From the NCBI GenBank assembly GCA_028714475.1, contig JAQTNC010000007.1, positions 1-44,792 of the forward strand: 44,792 nucleotides of DNA. The letters run 5' to 3'. Under the pieces are notes generated by a model that searched no databases, was not told the origin of the DNA, and worked only from the letters and a program-made list of their open reading frames with translations. The translations under genes were made by a program, and so were the position numbers. Positions 2,660 to 12,136 of the stretch are shown here, in pieces. The stretch is from Patescibacteria group bacterium (GTDB lineage: Bacteria; Patescibacteriota; Patescibacteriia; SG8-24). Positions within the stretch are counted from its first letter, which is position 1, and every line of letters starts with the position of its first letter.

Positions 2660-4231
2660 GTGCGTAGCAAAGTCAAGTCAGCCAAACCGCTTGCGCCCGG
2701 CAAACCAAGGGCGAAAACAAGGGAGGATTTAGCCTCGTTCGAGCATACCTGTCGGCGCGTCTTTAGGGTGATTAAGGACGGCGTCCTGCTGGTCAACGCG
2801 AAGACGGGCTCGATAGAGGAGAGCAACCCCAGCCTGCTCAAGATATTGGGATGCACCAAGAAGGAACTGCTGAAAAGGAAAATATGGAGCATCGGATTTT
2901 TGGACGGCCCGCTGTCCAGCCAAGCGGCTTTCGGCCGGCTGAAGCGTGGGCATCAGGTCAGCTATGAGCATCTGCAGATCCTAACCAAGCGGAGACAGCG
3001 CCTGGGCGTGAATCTGGAATATGCCTTCTATCGCGCTGGCGACATCGAAGTCGTTCAATTCAACATTCGCGACATCACCGAGCGCCGGCGTCTGGAAACC
3101 GCCCTGCAGGAACGCGAGGAGCGGTACCGAAAAATTTTTGACAACAGCCAACTGGGCATAGCGATCATCTCCTTGGATCTTCGTATCTCCAAGATTAACC
3201 AGGCGTTCACCCGTATCACCGGTTACGATGAGACTGACATGAAGAGGCTGGCGCTGACGGACATCACGCATCCGAGCCATTTGTCGGCCGAAAAGAAAAT
3301 CCTTCGGGGCTTAAGGAACTGCGCCAACGGTGATTATCATGTCGAGCAGCGTTACATCGGGAAACGGGGCAACGTGGTTTGGGCCAACACCCATATCAGC
3401 GCCGTGTGCGACAAGGACGGCAAACCGATGTATTTTCAGACGATCATCGAGGATATTACTGAACGCAAGCAGATGGAGGCGGAGCTCGAGGAACAGAACC
3501 TCCGGAGCATCGAAAAGGAAAAGACGATTCAGAAGCTGAAGGACGAATTCATCTTCATCGCGGCGCATGAGTTGCGCACTCCCGTCACGGCCATTGGTTG
3601 GGCCATGGAATTGCTCAAGGAAGGTCAAGAGAAAAGCGGCGTTAAAACGTCGGAATCAACGGAAATCATGGATATTCTCGTCGAGAATACCAAAAGGCTC
3701 AACAACCTGGTCGCTGAACTGCTGGAGGTCTCGCGCATCGAGTACGGCACCTTCAAGGTTGTCCCGGAGAAGTTCGACCTCGCGACCGTTATCGATCGGG
3801 CCGTGTTGTCCGTCAAGCCGCTGGCTAAAGAAAAAGCCGTCAGCGTCAAGGTCATTCCGGTATCGGCCGGTTTCCCCGAGGCTTTTGCGGATCCGATTCG
3901 CGTTTATGAGGTCCTGACCAACCTGCTCACGAACGCCATCAAATACAACAAAAGCGGCGGCAACGCCACCGTTCGCGCCAATGAAGGCAAGACGGAACTG
4001 CAGGTCAGCGTCGAAGATACCGGTTTCGGTCTTAACGCCGAAGACATCCCGAAGCTTTTCCACAGGTTTTCGCGCATCGAAAGCGATGAGACCGCAAAAA
4101 TCGGCGGTACTGGCCTCGGCCTGTTCATCGTCAAGCAGGTCGTCGAACGGATGGGGGGAAGCGTTTTGGTAGCGAGTCCCGGTCGCGGGCAGGGGGCAAC
4201 CTTCACCTTCAGCCTGCCGAAGGCCAAGTAA
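2660..4231 (+). CDS. Soluble PAS-PAS sensor histidine kinase
   Basis: 523 residues with a GTG start; the ATG at 2655 is in another frame and no in-frame ATG precedes. Domain order: PAS 1 (~30-140, ending NIRDITERRRLE), PAS 2 with PAC (~150-275, ending IIEDITERKQME), a coiled linker, HisKA with the H-box AAHELRTPV (phospho-acceptor His303), and HATPase_c with N-box NAIKYN (Asn425), DTGFGL (Asp453) and GGTGLGLF (from Gly482). All catalytic boxes look intact. No membrane segment is seen, so it should sense an intracellular signal through its PAS domains. No response regulator is adjacent; the cognate partner must be elsewhere. It is divergent from a PAS-only protein and ends at a bidirectional terminator shared with engB. 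Confidence 0.93.
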   Translation: MRSKVKSAKPLAPGKPRAKTREDLASFEHTCRRVFRVIKDGVLLVNAKTGSIEESNPSLLKILGCTKKELLKRKIWSIGFLDGPLSSQAAFGRLKRGHQVSYEHLQILTKRRQRLGVNLEYAFYRAGDIEVVQFNIRDITERRRLETALQEREERYRKIFDNSQLGIAIISLDLRISKINQAFTRITGYDETDMKRLALTDITHPSHLSAEKKILRGLRNCANGDYHVEQRYIGKRGNVVWANTHISAVCDKDGKPMYFQTIIEDITERKQMEAELEEQNLRSIEKEKTIQKLKDEFIFIAAHELRTPVTAIGWAMELLKEGQEKSGVKTSESTEIMDILVENTKRLNNLVAELLEVSRIEYGTFKVVPEKFDLATVIDRAVLSVKPLAKEKAVSVKVIPVSAGFPEAFADPIRVYEVLTNLLTNAIKYNKSGGNATVRANEGKTELQVSVEDTGFGLNAEDIPKLFHRFSRIESDETAKIGGTGLGLFIVKQVVERMGGSVLVASPGRGQGATFTFSLPKAK

Positions 4232-6932: not shown

Positions 6933-7059
6933 TGGTTCTTTTGTTGCTTGACAACGGCATCGGCCTCGTCGCGAAGGCGGCGCTGCGCCCGCAAACCGTT
7001 CAACCATTTCGGTCGGCGACGACAGACAAACGTCGTCAGACAGGATGAAGGAGATAGTC

Positions 7060-8571
7060 ATGTATCTGGCCATCAGGAATCGCGGCACTACGCCGCGCAT
7101 TCGACTGGAGCTGTTTGGGTTGAGTCCGAAGCGCGGCCGGCAAGACCGGCAGTTCATCGGCAATAAGGGGTCGGGAGCGAAGCTCGCCCCGCTAGCGGCC
7201 ATGCGGTTTGGCCTTGATCTGCACATCGCCTCATCAGACAGCGAAGGTCCCTACGTGCTGCACTATGAGACAGAGCTGGTCAGTGACGGCGTCTGCGAGG
7301 ACCAGCGCGTGGTGTTCGTCTACGAGCAGCCTGGGACGTCGTCAGTCGTGAGGAAGCCCTCACAGGTGGCGTTGGGTTCCTTCCTTGATTGGGACCGACC
7401 CATTGAGGAAGATGAAAGCGCCCCCTTCAAGGTGATTAGGGAATACGTCGCTAACGCCATTGACGAGGATCCGGGTTTCTCGATTGAATATGTGGACCAT
7501 CCGGAACCGGCGCCGAACGGTGAGACGGTCGTTTACCTCCGGCGAACGCCGGAGGTCGATGCCATCTTCAAGACGCCGGAACGGTATTTCAAGTTTCTTG
7601 CTTCCGGACCAACGAGCATGGCTCTTGCCACCCTGCGCGGCTTCGGCCAAATCTACTTGCGGTCGGATCCGGATCATTGCCGTTTGTTCATCCGCGGTGT
7701 CTTGGTCAGCTGCTGCGAAGTGATATTCAGCAACCCGCTTTTTGACTACTCCCTGGACGACACTGACCTTCTGTCCGAGGAACGGGTCTTGCGCAGTCCG
7801 TACGAGTATCAGACGCGGGTTGGACAGATGCTGGCCCGTTTGGAAAGTCCGGTAACGGCCCGACTCATCCTCGAAGGCGTCAAGCGGGGTTCAGCTGATT
7901 ACGAAATTGGCTGTCTGAGCCGGATTCCCGACATCAGCGCCGCGGCCAAAGACATCTGGAGAGAGGCCATGGAGCAGGTGTATGGCTCGCCGGTTTGCGT
8001 CGGCACGTCATCGCGCAACACTAACGAAACCGCCCATCAGAATTACGGCTATGTCGTGGTGAGCAGCGATTTTGCCTCGCTGGGGCGATTCCTGCTGAAG
8101 CTCGGCTACCCCAAGGCTTCGGGCGTGGTGTCAAACGTCAGTGACGACAGCGACTATCGGCGCTTGCGTTTGGCGGATTTTGATGAGGCCAGCCGGAGGC
8201 GTTTCCTCGGCGCGTGGCGGCTGTTCGCCCGACACTTCCCTGAACGCGCTGGCCTCCCCGTCGTTTTCCTTTATCCGCTCACGGAAAAGGGCGCGAGGTA
8301 TTCCGGCGTCTCGGACATAGGCGGTCAGCGGTTCAACGTCATCGGAATCGTGACGCGTTCGTCGAGTGAGTTGCCCCAGGCAATCGACCTGCTGAAAACG
8401 ATGATTCACGAATCTCGCCATTGCGTTACCAAGGTTGACGATTTCGAGCGGGCGTTCGTTGCGCAATCGGACCGTGACAACCTCAGGCTGATTCTGCATG
8501 CTGAAGGGCAGTTTGTCTTTGATGAGGACGAGACAGTCCCACCAGAACAGCCGACCTTCACGGATCCGTAA
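7060..8571 (+). CDS. Uncharacterised protein with GHKL-type N-box and C-terminal HExxH motif
   Basis: 503 residues. The ATG at 7060 is preferred over 7045 because AAGGAG at 7048-7053 sits 6 nt before it. Residues 5-9 (IRNRG) and 34-42 (GNKGSGAKL) match a glycine-rich pattern I know from uncharacterised phage and plasmid proteins annotated as Hsp90-like ATPases. Residues 124-136 (VIREYVANAIDED) give the GHKL N-box E-x-x-x-N-A-x-D, with Glu128, Asn132 and Asp135. Near the C-terminus HESRH (450-454) is a zincin-type HExxH, followed by an acidic tail. It could be an ATP-dependent metalloprotease-like or RIIA-like protein; no function is established. No transmembrane segment is seen. It has a terminator hairpin downstream and faces the deoxyribosyltransferase-like gene, both probably accessory. 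Confidence 0.6.
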   Translation: MYLAIRNRGTTPRIRLELFGLSPKRGRQDRQFIGNKGSGAKLAPLAAMRFGLDLHIASSDSEGPYVLHYETELVSDGVCEDQRVVFVYEQPGTSSVVRKPSQVALGSFLDWDRPIEEDESAPFKVIREYVANAIDEDPGFSIEYVDHPEPAPNGETVVYLRRTPEVDAIFKTPERYFKFLASGPTSMALATLRGFGQIYLRSDPDHCRLFIRGVLVSCCEVIFSNPLFDYSLDDTDLLSEERVLRSPYEYQTRVGQMLARLESPVTARLILEGVKRGSADYEIGCLSRIPDISAAAKDIWREAMEQVYGSPVCVGTSSRNTNETAHQNYGYVVVSSDFASLGRFLLKLGYPKASGVVSNVSDDSDYRRLRLADFDEASRRRFLGAWRLFARHFPERAGLPVVFLYPLTEKGARYSGVSDIGGQRFNVIGIVTRSSSELPQAIDLLKTMIHESRHCVTKVDDFERAFVAQSDRDNLRLILHAEGQFVFDEDETVPPEQPTFTDP

Positions 8572-8580
8572 GCTTACAGC

Positions 8581-8609
8581 GCGGCCGCCCTCTTGCTCGG
8601 GGCGGCCGC
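8581..8609 (+). terminator. GC-rich terminator-like hairpin
   Basis: A perfect 10-bp stem (8581-8590 with 8600-8609) lies 10 bp after the stop of the preceding gene. The downstream T run is weak, so termination efficiency is uncertain. Confidence 0.55.
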
Positions 8610-8739: not shown

Positions 8740-9354
8740 TCACATGATGAACGGACTGCAGGCGGGCTTCGTGACCGCGTTGGCTTTGGCGCCAGGGCCT
8801 TGCCGTTTGGCCTTCGGCTTCTTTTTCGCGCCTTGACCGGTCAGCGAACGGTGATTGGTGCCTAGTTTGGCGCGTCCACCGTGGCTGGCGCCTAGCTTCA
8901 CGCGCACCAACGACGGAAACTGCGCGGCTATTTCCTCGAATCGCGAGAACCTGATGACCGACGGGATGTCGGTGCCGACATTGGCGTCGCTTTGCGCGGT
9001 CATCCTCTCAATCAGCGGGTGACATCGGCTTCGCATGGCCAATATGGTCGGCTTGCCCCGGGCATGGAAATACCCGATCTCGAAACCGCGACCCTCGCTG
9101 GCCTGACCGTCATTGAAGATGGCCAGCAGCGCGTCGCACCTGTTCATCAGGGCCAAGCCCCGATCGGCGACCTCGGTCCAGGACAGCGCGTCAGGACCTT
9201 CGAACTTCCAGCCTCGGACATCCTCGGCAAGACTGAAGACTTGGTAGCCGCGTTGGCGGAGCAGTCGGCCAAGAGCATCGAGGCGTTGCTTTACCTGGGA
9301 GACATGTTCGCCGGTAAAACGGTACGCCAGGAAAATTTTTCTCACTGTCATCAA
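8740..9354 (-). CDS. Nucleoside 2-deoxyribosyltransferase-like protein with basic tail
   Basis: 204 residues with a good Shine-Dalgarno (GGAGG, 7 nt before the ATG). The first ~115 residues match the nucleoside 2-deoxyribosyltransferase/Rcl fold: KIFLAYRF, then CDALLAIFND with Asp74, and EGRGFEIGYFHARGKPTI with the probable catalytic Glu92. This family cleaves or exchanges the N-glycosidic bond of deoxynucleosides or nucleotides, and the same fold is used by some NAD- or nucleotide-processing immune effectors. From ~150 on, the protein has an unusual Lys/Gly-rich tail with an internal KLG-x-x-H repeat (KLGASH and KLGTNH), possibly nucleic-acid binding. It may take part in salvage, or act as an effector with the neighbouring GHKL-like protein; the latter is speculation. 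Confidence 0.7.
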   Translation of the reverse strand: MMTVRKIFLAYRFTGEHVSQVKQRLDALGRLLRQRGYQVFSLAEDVRGWKFEGPDALSWTEVADRGLALMNRCDALLAIFNDGQASEGRGFEIGYFHARGKPTILAMRSRCHPLIERMTAQSDANVGTDIPSVIRFSRFEEIAAQFPSLVRVKLGASHGGRAKLGTNHRSLTGQGAKKKPKAKRQGPGAKANAVTKPACSPFIM

Positions 9355-9521: not shown

Positions 9522-10952
9522 ATGAATACTCCAAAATGGGTTTTGCCGGTGGCCATTGCGGTCTTGGGCCTGGCCAGCTTGTCGGCGGCGCTGGTCGTCG
9601 TGTTCCGCGCCGTCGGGCCGCGGCAATCTCAACTCACCCTCGTGTCCAAGCCGGCTCCGGTGGTCTCGGTCAAGCAGCTTGAAGGCACCGAGGTCGGCAC
9701 CGGATCGAGCGGCAACGACGACCCCAAGGTGGCGGTTGAGGAGGCGGCGGACATGGCCCTGAAAGACAAGAAGATGACGCCGGATTTTGCCGCCGTGTTC
9801 GTCAACGCGGGTACGGATGCCAGCGCGGTCTTTTCGGAGTTGCGTCAGAGATTCGGCGAACAGATCAAGATTTTCGGCGGCACGTCCTCGGCGCGCGCCG
9901 TCATGTCGGACAAGGGCATGATCGCCATCGAGGGTCAGGGTTTCAGCGAGGAATACCGTCAGGCGCGCAAGGGCCTGGTCATGATGACCGTGGCGTCAAA
10001 GGACATCACCTTCGGCGTCGGGACCGCACGCATCTCGGAGCATGCCTCGTCACAGGAGGCGGGCGCCGCCGCGCTCCGCGAGGCCTTGAAGAGCATCGGC
10101 AAGACGGAGGCCGATAAGCCCAACGTCATCCTGATGACGACCATCCGTCCGGAAGAAGACAACGTGATGGCTGGCATCGAGCAGGTGATGGGCAAGGACG
10201 CCGTCATCTTGGGCGGCACGGCCGGCGGCCCCAACTTTGCCGTTTTCGGCAAGGACGGCGCCTATAATGACGGCGTTTCCATCGCCGTGTTGTTCACGGA
10301 CCTGCCCGTCGGCTGGACGTTCAGCAACAGTTTCGATACGCCCGACCTTCGTTACGGCGTCGCCACGAAGGTTGACGGCATGGAGCTCATCGAAATAGAC
10401 CATCGCCCGGCGCTTGACGTGCTCGACGAATGGCTCGACGGTGAGATCACGCGGATTCATTCCGAAAACAGCGATCCGCGGTTTGTTAGAGATTTCTTGG
10501 CCGTGCACCCCTTGTATCGGAAATTCATGTCGGCGGACGGGCAGGCATACTTCATCATTTCGCATCCGTGGCCTAAGGACGAGAAGATGGTCGGGCGAAC
10601 GCTCATGACCGCGACGCACATCAAGGAAGGGGAGACGGTCTTCCTGGGCCGCGGCAGCCTTGACCAGATCATGAACGGCATTGCCAACTTGCCGGGCACG
10701 GCCAAGCGCAACGTCGGCATGGACATCAATGAACAGCCGGTGCTGGCGTTGGGTTTCGTCTGTAACGGCGCCCTCGGTGCCTTGCCGGAAGAGGAGCGCA
10801 TGAAGTTGCCCAAGCTGGTCGGAACGGCGACCGGCGGGGCGCCCTATCTCGTCGTTTATTCCTACGGCGAACAGGGGCACTTGCCGGGCTACGGCAATGC
10901 CCACGCCAACCTCTCCGCCTCGTTCCTGGTCATCGGCAGCGGCCAACGCTGA
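9522..10952 (+). CDS. Membrane-anchored FIST domain protein
   Basis: 476 residues. An N-terminal hydrophobic helix (residues ~5-30) precedes a ~40-residue linker and then FIST N and FIST C domains. FIST features visible are FGGTSSARAVMSDKG, ILGGTAGGPNF, the C-terminal GALGALPEEE stretch and a final SYGE-HANLSASFLVIG strand. FIST is a ligand-binding sensory domain, usually cytoplasmic and fused to kinases, cyclases or chemoreceptors, and proposed to bind small ligands such as amino acids. Here it is alone and, judged by the N-terminal helix, displayed outside the membrane, which is unusual. The helix could be a cleaved signal peptide, but no clear A-x-A site is seen. It ends at a perfect bidirectional terminator. 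Confidence 0.85.
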   Translation: MNTPKWVLPVAIAVLGLASLSAALVVVFRAVGPRQSQLTLVSKPAPVVSVKQLEGTEVGTGSSGNDDPKVAVEEAADMALKDKKMTPDFAAVFVNAGTDASAVFSELRQRFGEQIKIFGGTSSARAVMSDKGMIAIEGQGFSEEYRQARKGLVMMTVASKDITFGVGTARISEHASSQEAGAAALREALKSIGKTEADKPNVILMTTIRPEEDNVMAGIEQVMGKDAVILGGTAGGPNFAVFGKDGAYNDGVSIAVLFTDLPVGWTFSNSFDTPDLRYGVATKVDGMELIEIDHRPALDVLDEWLDGEITRIHSENSDPRFVRDFLAVHPLYRKFMSADGQAYFIISHPWPKDEKMVGRTLMTATHIKEGETVFLGRGSLDQIMNGIANLPGTAKRNVGMDINEQPVLALGFVCNGALGALPEEERMKLPKLVGTATGGAPYLVVYSYGEQGHLPGYGNAHANLSASFLVIGSGQR

Positions 10953-11047: not shown

Positions 11048-11602
11048 TCAGGCGCCGGATGACTGAAGCAGTCGGTCGACCTGCGCGTAAAGCGCCGTCA
11101 GGTCCCCGGCGTTGTCGAGGCGCACGTCAGCCTCATCGCTGATTTCGTGGATCGCGGCCTCGGTCGGCAGTTTCTCGTTGGCCGCGAATTCCTCCCAGGA
11201 CATGTTCTTCTCGTTTTCCTTCTCGCCACGGTTGCGGATGCGCTCGAAACGGAGGCGTTCCGGCGCGCTGACAAAGACCAGGCGGAACCCGGGCAGCTTC
11301 TTCAGGTGCACCATGTCGGCCGGTCGTCGGATGCCGTTCGCGACGACGATGGCCGACGGGTCGTGTCCACAATCCCTCGCGACGATGCGGGCGTAAAGGT
11401 CCTCGCCGTAGCTTTGCCGCGTGATGACGGAAAACGTCGCCAGGTTCTCCCGCGTCGTCGTCACGTCCAGGCGATGTAGGCAGTCGAACATCGCGGTCGA
11501 GAACTTATGCACTGTAGCGTGGTGTTTTTCCACGAGATAGTTGGCGACCGTGTCCTTGCCCGCGCCAATCTCTCCCGTCAGGCCGATGATGATTTTCGGC
11601 AT
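11048..11602 (-). CDS. P-loop nucleotide kinase (dephospho-CoA/dNMP kinase-like)
   Basis: 184 residues. The Walker A motif GEIGAGKDT (10-18, Lys16) is followed by a substrate-binding region (HKFSTAMFDCL) and a lid-like segment rich in Arg/Lys/Glu (ERIRNRGEKENEKNMSWEEF). The pattern fits the dephospho-CoA kinase/deoxynucleoside monophosphate kinase group of P-loop kinases. It starts 3 bp downstream of the dCMP deaminase gene on the same strand, and that deaminase makes dUMP, so a (deoxy)nucleotide kinase role is favoured over CoA synthesis. The exact substrate cannot be told from the sequence. Confidence 0.75.
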   Translation of the reverse strand: MPKIIIGLTGEIGAGKDTVANYLVEKHHATVHKFSTAMFDCLHRLDVTTTRENLATFSVITRQSYGEDLYARIVARDCGHDPSAIVVANGIRRPADMVHLKKLPGFRLVFVSAPERLRFERIRNRGEKENEKNMSWEEFAANEKLPTEAAIHEISDEADVRLDNAGDLTALYAQVDRLLQSSGA

Positions 11603-11605
11603 AGG

Positions 11606-12136
11606 TTAAGCAGCGACCTCGGCGGTCTTTTTCGCCTCGTCTTCAGTGACATGGCGGAGCGGCGCGGCGACGATTTCCGAGGCGTGTTCCGACCAGCCCG
11701 GTGCCGGTTCATACAGCACGAACTCGATGCCGGCCTCCTTGCACCATTCGACGATGTCCGAGGCGCGGTAGATGGCGCCGGCGACGATGCGCTTGACGCC
11801 GCCGACCGCAATTTTCTTGAAGCAGTGGTAGCAGGGCGAGGCGACGGTGTAGAGCGTCGAGCCGGCCGTGGCCACGCCGCCGACCGCCGCGACCTGCAGG
11901 ATGCAGTTCTCCTCGGCGTGGACGGTGCGGATGCAGTGGCCTTCCTCCAGCTTGTGGCCGGCTTCGCTGTCGCAGTGCGCCATGCCCGGCGGCGCGCCGT
12001 TGTAGCCAGTGGAGATGATGCGCTTGTTTTTTACCAGCACGGCGCCGGCCCGCAGCCGGTCGCAGGTGGAGCGCGAAGCCACGATCTTGGCGATGGTCAT
12101 GAAGTAGTCGTCCCAGCTTGGGCGTTGGCAGGTCAT
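11606..12136 (-). CDS. Deoxycytidylate (dCMP) deaminase
   Basis: 176 residues, the usual length for this family. It begins RPSWDDYFMTIAKIVASRSTC, typical of dCMP deaminases. The zinc site is H-A-E-E-N (His73, catalytic Glu75) plus SPCYHC (Cys102, Cys105); TGYNGAPPGMAHC supplies the substrate loop. The enzyme converts dCMP to dUMP for dTMP synthesis. It is first in a two-gene minus-strand unit with the P-loop kinase, a coherent pyrimidine deoxynucleotide module. The ~35-residue C-terminal extension after the core (SEHASEIVAAPLRHV...) looks lineage-specific. Confidence 0.93.
   Translation of the reverse strand: MTCQRPSWDDYFMTIAKIVASRSTCDRLRAGAVLVKNKRIISTGYNGAPPGMAHCDSEAGHKLEEGHCIRTVHAEENCILQVAAVGGVATAGSTLYTVASPCYHCFKKIAVGGVKRIVAGAIYRASDIVEWCKEAGIEFVLYEPAPGWSEHASEIVAAPLRHVTEDEAKKTAEVAA

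Follow-up and report, generated by a model that had tools for sequence, protein, structure and literature searches.

The gene at positions 7060–8571 of the window (the whole stretch of 44,792 nucleotides that was analysed, from a Patescibacteria group bacterium) encodes a 503-residue protein in which residues 1–162 are assigned with strong confidence to a circularly permuted GHKL (Bergerat) domain and residues ~358–489 with good confidence to a zincin-type fold. Homology, the permutation, the fold class of both ends and a branch-specific metal site were computed, and the labels "ATPase" and "protease" are predictions.

The open frame comprises 503 codons and a stop on the forward strand, and its ATG at 7060 agrees with the point at which the relatives begin (MKYLKI...) when they are aligned. 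The gene and its signals are as follows.

7060..8571, forward strand: gene for the 503-residue protein, made up of the permuted GHKL domain, a middle region and the zincin-like domain (open frame and relatives)
7048..7053, forward strand: AAGGAG ribosome-binding site, six bases 5' of the ATG at 7060 (sequence)
8581..8609, forward strand: strong terminator-like hairpin of 11 pairs, followed by ATTATTTATC (sequence)

Because relatives at 27–44% identity occur in 8 other related genomes, neither the gene nor its motifs are products of chance, and the frame is a real gene. The genome that carries it is tiny, at 1.4 Mb. Pfam and NCBIfam scans of the native protein and its relatives gave no match.

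The named relatives come from Patescibacteria assemblies (Parcubacteria SG8_24, an Uhrbacteria bacterium, a Paceibacterota bacterium and others). The gene is present in 6 of the 10 genomes of its own family, in 2/2 of the second family of the order and in 1/45 in the remaining class sample, and a mixed-profile search that covered 380 genomes from the whole phylum recovered the window's own copy alone. Distant relatives are frequent in phages, including a huge phage of 595 kb and the cultured Stenotrophomonas phage Sonora and Synechococcus phage Ssp-JY42, where the protein is annotated as "HATPase"; one scan found relatives on 149 IMG/VR stretches, and a plasmid search found no match to the family. 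The phage relatives belong to PHROG 8203 (phrog_8203), of unknown function, and phrog_6077 also matches, which bears out the mention, in the sequence-only reading, of related phage proteins with no described function.

Conservation was read from an alignment of 67 sequences, 6 bacterial and 61 from phages. Residues G20, G34, G37, G39, R127, E128, N132, D135, E240, R242, E451, H454 and D461 are invariant (67/67), and N7 (66/67 rows), G9 (64/67 rows), K24, I33 and K41 are nearly so. Residue 7 (window 7078–7080), Asn in those 66 sequences, stands in the place of the adenine-contacting Asp of GHKL proteins. Residue 450 is His in every bacterial row and Glu in 61/61 phage rows, and position 471 carries an acidic side chain in 9/9 bacterial sequences and a hydrophobic one in 61/61 phage rows. 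A tree split the bacterial from the phage proteins by one branch with 100/100 support, and the family consists of a Patescibacteria branch, with HExxH and an acidic residue 471, and a large phage branch, in which the motif reads EExxH and residue 471 is not acidic. Because the tree separates these branches once, the difference at 450/471 represents a single event and not repeated covariation; the tree is unrooted and gives no order of age for the two states. The motif positions given by the sequence-only reading were exact (GNKGSGAKL at G34–L42, E128/N132/D135 and HESRH at H450–H454), and of the residues on whose conservation among homologues it had staked its case, E128, N132, E451 and H454 are invariant and H450 is bacterial only.

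Hsp90, gyrase, MutL, histidine kinases and RIIA are built on the GHKL fold, and canonical GHKL proteins carry their motifs in the order N-box, G1, G2, which our alignment also showed for RIIA. In the 503-residue protein the order is G1-like (7–9), G2 (33–41) and N-box (128–135), and the linear GHKL order is absent. The domain contains the following elements.

7060..7545, forward strand: circularly permuted GHKL (Bergerat) domain, residues 1–162 (AF2 pLDDT mostly 90–97; rotation tests)
7063..7086, forward strand: first strand with the G1-like motif xxNxG (N7, G9; canonical Asp replaced by Asn; alignment)
7120..7182, forward strand: ATP-lid/G2 segment, residues 21–41, with K24 and IGxxGSGxK (invariant glycines; rotated alignment to IGQFGVG of HtpG/Hsp90)
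7423..7467, forward strand: N-box helix, residues 122–136, with R127, E128, N132 and D135 (AF2 helix; invariance in 67 rows)

Both the alignment and the AF2 model place the N-box E-x3-N-x2-D on helix 122–136. The G2 box with its lid is also present as IGxxG[ST]GxK, its glycines invariant and, after rotation, in register with IGxFGxG of Hsp90. The G1 box, D-x-G-x-G, is degenerate (N7-x-G9, with the second Gly missing); judged from sequence, the exchange of Asp for Asn together with the missing Gly may give a different nucleotide specificity. No N-box was overlooked upstream of the ATG, since the frame closes 36 codons before it and none lies within those codons.

Scored against RIIA, a native-order profile of residues 1–162 reached 43.4 and aligned at the N-box only, a rotated profile reached 58.1 and aligned from the N-box through G2, and a doubled profile reached 56.9 with an alignment that crosses the junction. 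The reversed control profile scored 15.8, and a set of 60 controls, rotated profiles in which the G-block columns had been shuffled, scored 43.4 ± 0.4, with a maximum of 46.5. When the rotated profile was compared with all PDB sequences, 29 of the 31 matches were Hsp90, HtpG, Grp94, MORC or sacsin chains, at modest E-values (0.06–0.9), and in the printed alignments the N-box, G1 and G2 were all in register. In the native-order PDB control both halves matched GHKL proteins separately, with the target order reversed (query 13–59 to MORC2 77–121, 16–46 to HtpG 125–154 and 102–132 to Hsp86 31–62). Rotation brought no gain beyond the N-box against a mixed Patescibacteria HATPase_c_3 set; the permutation claim is therefore carried by the RIIA and PDB tests.

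The AF2 model of the whole protein (mean pLDDT 89.5) shows, in order, strand 2–8, helix 39–49, four strands at 54–104, the N-box helix 122–136 and strands 141–145 and 155–161. Foldseek matched it to an RIIA protein in the viral library BFVD (E 1.8e-3, probability 0.97). A Foldseek search of the PDB with the full protein under sequential alignment found no significant GHKL match and topoisomerase VI-B only weakly, a poor score that is expected for a permutant because Foldseek aligns sequentially. This result, together with a Pfam scan in which the native and five rotated single sequences gave no HATPase match (profiles were needed), might be taken to mean that the N-terminal part is not GHKL and that its N-box and glycine-rich segments are a chance likeness. 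The rotation tests, shuffled controls, PDB enrichment and invariance of the key residues make that reading very unlikely. With its motif order reversed and alignable after rotation, the protein is therefore a permuted GHKL relative and not a canonical member of the group.

The permuted domain is followed by a middle region in two parts, and a profile of the transducer region (163–300) had no match to RIIA.

7627..7794, forward strand: beta-rich region, residues 190–245, containing the invariant E240 and R242 and resembling a transducer in position only (alignment, AF2)
7798..8154, forward strand: helical middle region, residues 247–365 (AF2)

The remainder of the chain is accounted for by the zincin-like domain and its putative metal site.

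8131..8526, forward strand: zincin-like (minigluzincin-type) domain as modelled, residues 358–489 (model pLDDT 92; Foldseek; Wss1/WLM profiles)
8407..8421, forward strand: HESRH, residues 450–454, on helix 441–457 (AF2, alignment)
8440..8442, forward strand: D461, invariant in both branches (alignment)
8470..8472, forward strand: D471, candidate third metal ligand (acidic in 9/9 bacterial and hydrophobic in 61/61 phage sequences)

Modelled by itself, at pLDDT 92, the domain forms a helix, three strands, the HESRH helix and a last helix; in the AF2 model helix 441–457 comes after strand 423–431, a zincin layout whose full HExxH is found in the bacterial branch only, the phage proteins having EExxH. 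The top 9 Foldseek PDB matches were all metallopeptidases or HExxH metalloenzymes, so that the HExxH enrichment among them is complete at weak E-values (0.16–2.5), and the matches include selecase, the ChlB HExxH oxygenase domain, abylysin, Pfu carboxypeptidase and aureolysin. The best PDB profile matches were Wss1 and a WLM protease, with HExxH in register, and Pfam profile matches include SprT-like, DUF2268 (predicted Zn protease) and WLM. Position +6 after HExxH reads D, D, H, Y, G and G in the bacterial rows, and the third His of the Wss1 type is thus not conserved. D461 is invariant yet also kept in the EExxH branch, whereas the acidic residue 471, on the next helix, occurs only with H450; D471 is a candidate that probably fits a gluzincin-type third ligand.

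For the bacterial branch we predict peptidase activity, a reading toward which we lean slightly. The domain could instead be a pseudo-zincin in both branches, serving the permuted GHKL switch as a binding or dimerisation module in the manner of the variable C-termini of RIIA. The phage branch, by far the larger sample, keeps E451, H454 and D461 without H450 or the acidic 471, that is, the fold and not the canonical site, and the missing Wss1-like +6 ligand points the same way. We regard this as possible but doubtful, since 9/9 bacterial members keep both HExxH and the acidic 471 at 27–44% identity, a pattern that is difficult to account for if no metal chemistry takes place. A mononuclear metal centre serving a different reaction, such as that of a facial-triad oxygenase, would agree with the Foldseek match to 8s5f (alpha-ketoglutarate-dependent oxygenase HExxH domain; probability 0.72 for the full protein, and 0.90 with rmsd 3.7 for the domain), and the E/H/D set of the phage proteins could bind iron. 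This alternative is unlikely: the peptidases selecase and abylysin rank equal or higher in Foldseek, and the sequence profile matches are proteases.

In the phage branch the domain is unlikely to be a canonical protease and is more probably a remnant with a metal-binding or regulatory role on a switch that still works. The analysis identifies phrog_8203 (loci L026–L122, for example L026:3613-4785) as a family of permuted GHKL proteins whose zincin-like C-terminal domain carries EExxH(x6)D. This C-terminal domain is missing from some relatives (for example L023 and L024). One member on a phage contig (L114:1153-2814, 554 residues) has a degenerate HExxH site (SYEQLK) and a C-terminal extension of ~120 residues without counterpart in other members. 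Of the two assignments made in the sequence-only reading, the GHKL-type ATPase domain was supported as a fold by the profiles and rotation tests, the reversed motif order having been missed in that reading; HESRH does lie in a zincin-like domain by model, Foldseek and profiles, with the complete HExxH confined to the bacterial branch.

In relatives the gene mostly stands after tsaD-tsaE, sometimes separated from them by a lytic transglycosylase gene, and it faces pilB and ftsH, often convergent downstream. The tsaE context was found at loci from several genera (L012, L014, L016, L017, L156, L157 and L158), which suggests that the gene is a stable part of the chromosome and not mobile. The window copy, which stands behind a VanY-like peptidase gene, represents a moved context, because tsaE of its genome sits on another contig. 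Also in the window are a sensor-like protein with FIST_N/FIST_C domains (9522–10952) and, not far off, a PAS histidine kinase-like gene (2660–4231). Among 82 phage loci there was no conserved partner gene and no cluster in more than 5 loci, and defence profiles, including those of PADLOC, did not match the window protein.

The window copy also neighbours a nucleoside deoxyribosyltransferase-like gene (8740–9354, minus strand), and nucleotide monophosphate kinase-like and dCMP deaminase-like genes adjoin at 11048–11602 and 11606–12136 (minus strand). These neighbours favour a role in a nucleoside-processing or other local accessory system, and the sequence-only reading had proposed such a functional link. 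However, the gene at 8740–9354 is convergent with that of the 503-residue protein, none of these genes lies near any relative, the relatives stand after tsaD-tsaE and opposite pilB, and tsaE is elsewhere in the window genome. We rejected the link, which is extremely improbable, because the neighbourhoods of relatives hold no deoxyribosyltransferase-like gene.

We propose that the 503-residue protein could act as a single-chain ATP-driven switch. The chain would start at the G1 strand, continue through the lid, the G2 helix and the sheet, and reach the N-box helix only afterwards. If the domain behaves like those of Hsp90, MutL and RIIA, bound ATP would shut the lid and cause the protein to change shape or to form dimers, with E128 as the putative general base and N132 and D135 contributing to the Mg/ATP site. 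The stretch that contains the invariant E240 and R242 would then pass the nucleotide signal to the minigluzincin-like domain, in which a catalytic zinc would be bound by H450, E451, H454 and probably D471. Opening or closing of this domain to substrate would place proteolysis of a target under nucleotide control. We infer that the protein binds and hydrolyses ATP, dimerises, binds zinc and cleaves a target, and that these activities are coupled; no conserved partner gene in the neighbourhoods points to a substrate. The model as a whole, in which a minimal metalloprotease of the bacteria is gated by ATP and the phage proteins have a non-canonical metal site, is in our judgement evenly balanced. 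Only tentatively do we extend it to a chromosomal gated protease of a Patescibacteria order and a protease-dead phage switch, possibly on opposite sides of a phage-host conflict.

No permuted GHKL domain and no GHKL-zincin fusion was described in the papers of the one open library searched. A circular permutant that occurs in nature would reveal the connections that the GHKL fold can give up while keeping its site, and the permutation would explain why the widespread phrog_8203 escaped Pfam-type annotation. The zincin fusion, intact in bacteria and altered in phages, would constitute a testable ATP-gated protease and supplies a function hypothesis for a phage family without one.

The closest known family is phrog_8203 (profile length 394), which has the same architecture, motif order and invariant residues; its profile matches the 503-residue protein in part only (E 7.9e-4) and phage members down to 1e-150. 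It differs in that the first His of HExxH is Glu and residue 471 is hydrophobic, and in being shorter and on a separate branch. Hsp90/HtpG and MORC have all three motifs in register with the rotated family profile but differ in their canonical order, the Asp in G1 and the absence of an attached protease-like domain. The minigluzincins selecase and abylysin and the Wss1, WLM and SprT-like zincins share the helix, three strands, HExxH helix and last helix, with weak fold and profile matches, whereas the domain described here is fused to an ATPase domain and does not conserve the Wss1 +6 His. Phage RIIA (T4 rIIA and relatives) shares the N-box RE...N..D, the S/T-K lid and IGxxGxGxK but has its N-box before G1/G2 and belongs to different PHROGs; the family matched no RIIA PHROG (only 8203 and 6077), and no neighbour, rIIB included, was conserved in the 82 phage loci. 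RIIA combines an N-terminal GHKL ATPase with a variable C-terminus in phage counter-defence (PMC7824862). Shedu VcSduA and paraMORC-HEPN likewise place a GHKL domain before an effector enzyme (PMC12137116, PMC3710099), but their effectors are nucleases, unlike the zincin-like domain, and the window protein has no PADLOC match. Control of an effector by a GHKL domain is an established design; in VcSduA the GHKL domain controls the attached effector, and ATPase and nuclease residues are both required for defence (PMC12137116). Because the motif order of the 503-residue protein differs from that of both, VcSduA and RIIA support the logic of gating and not membership.
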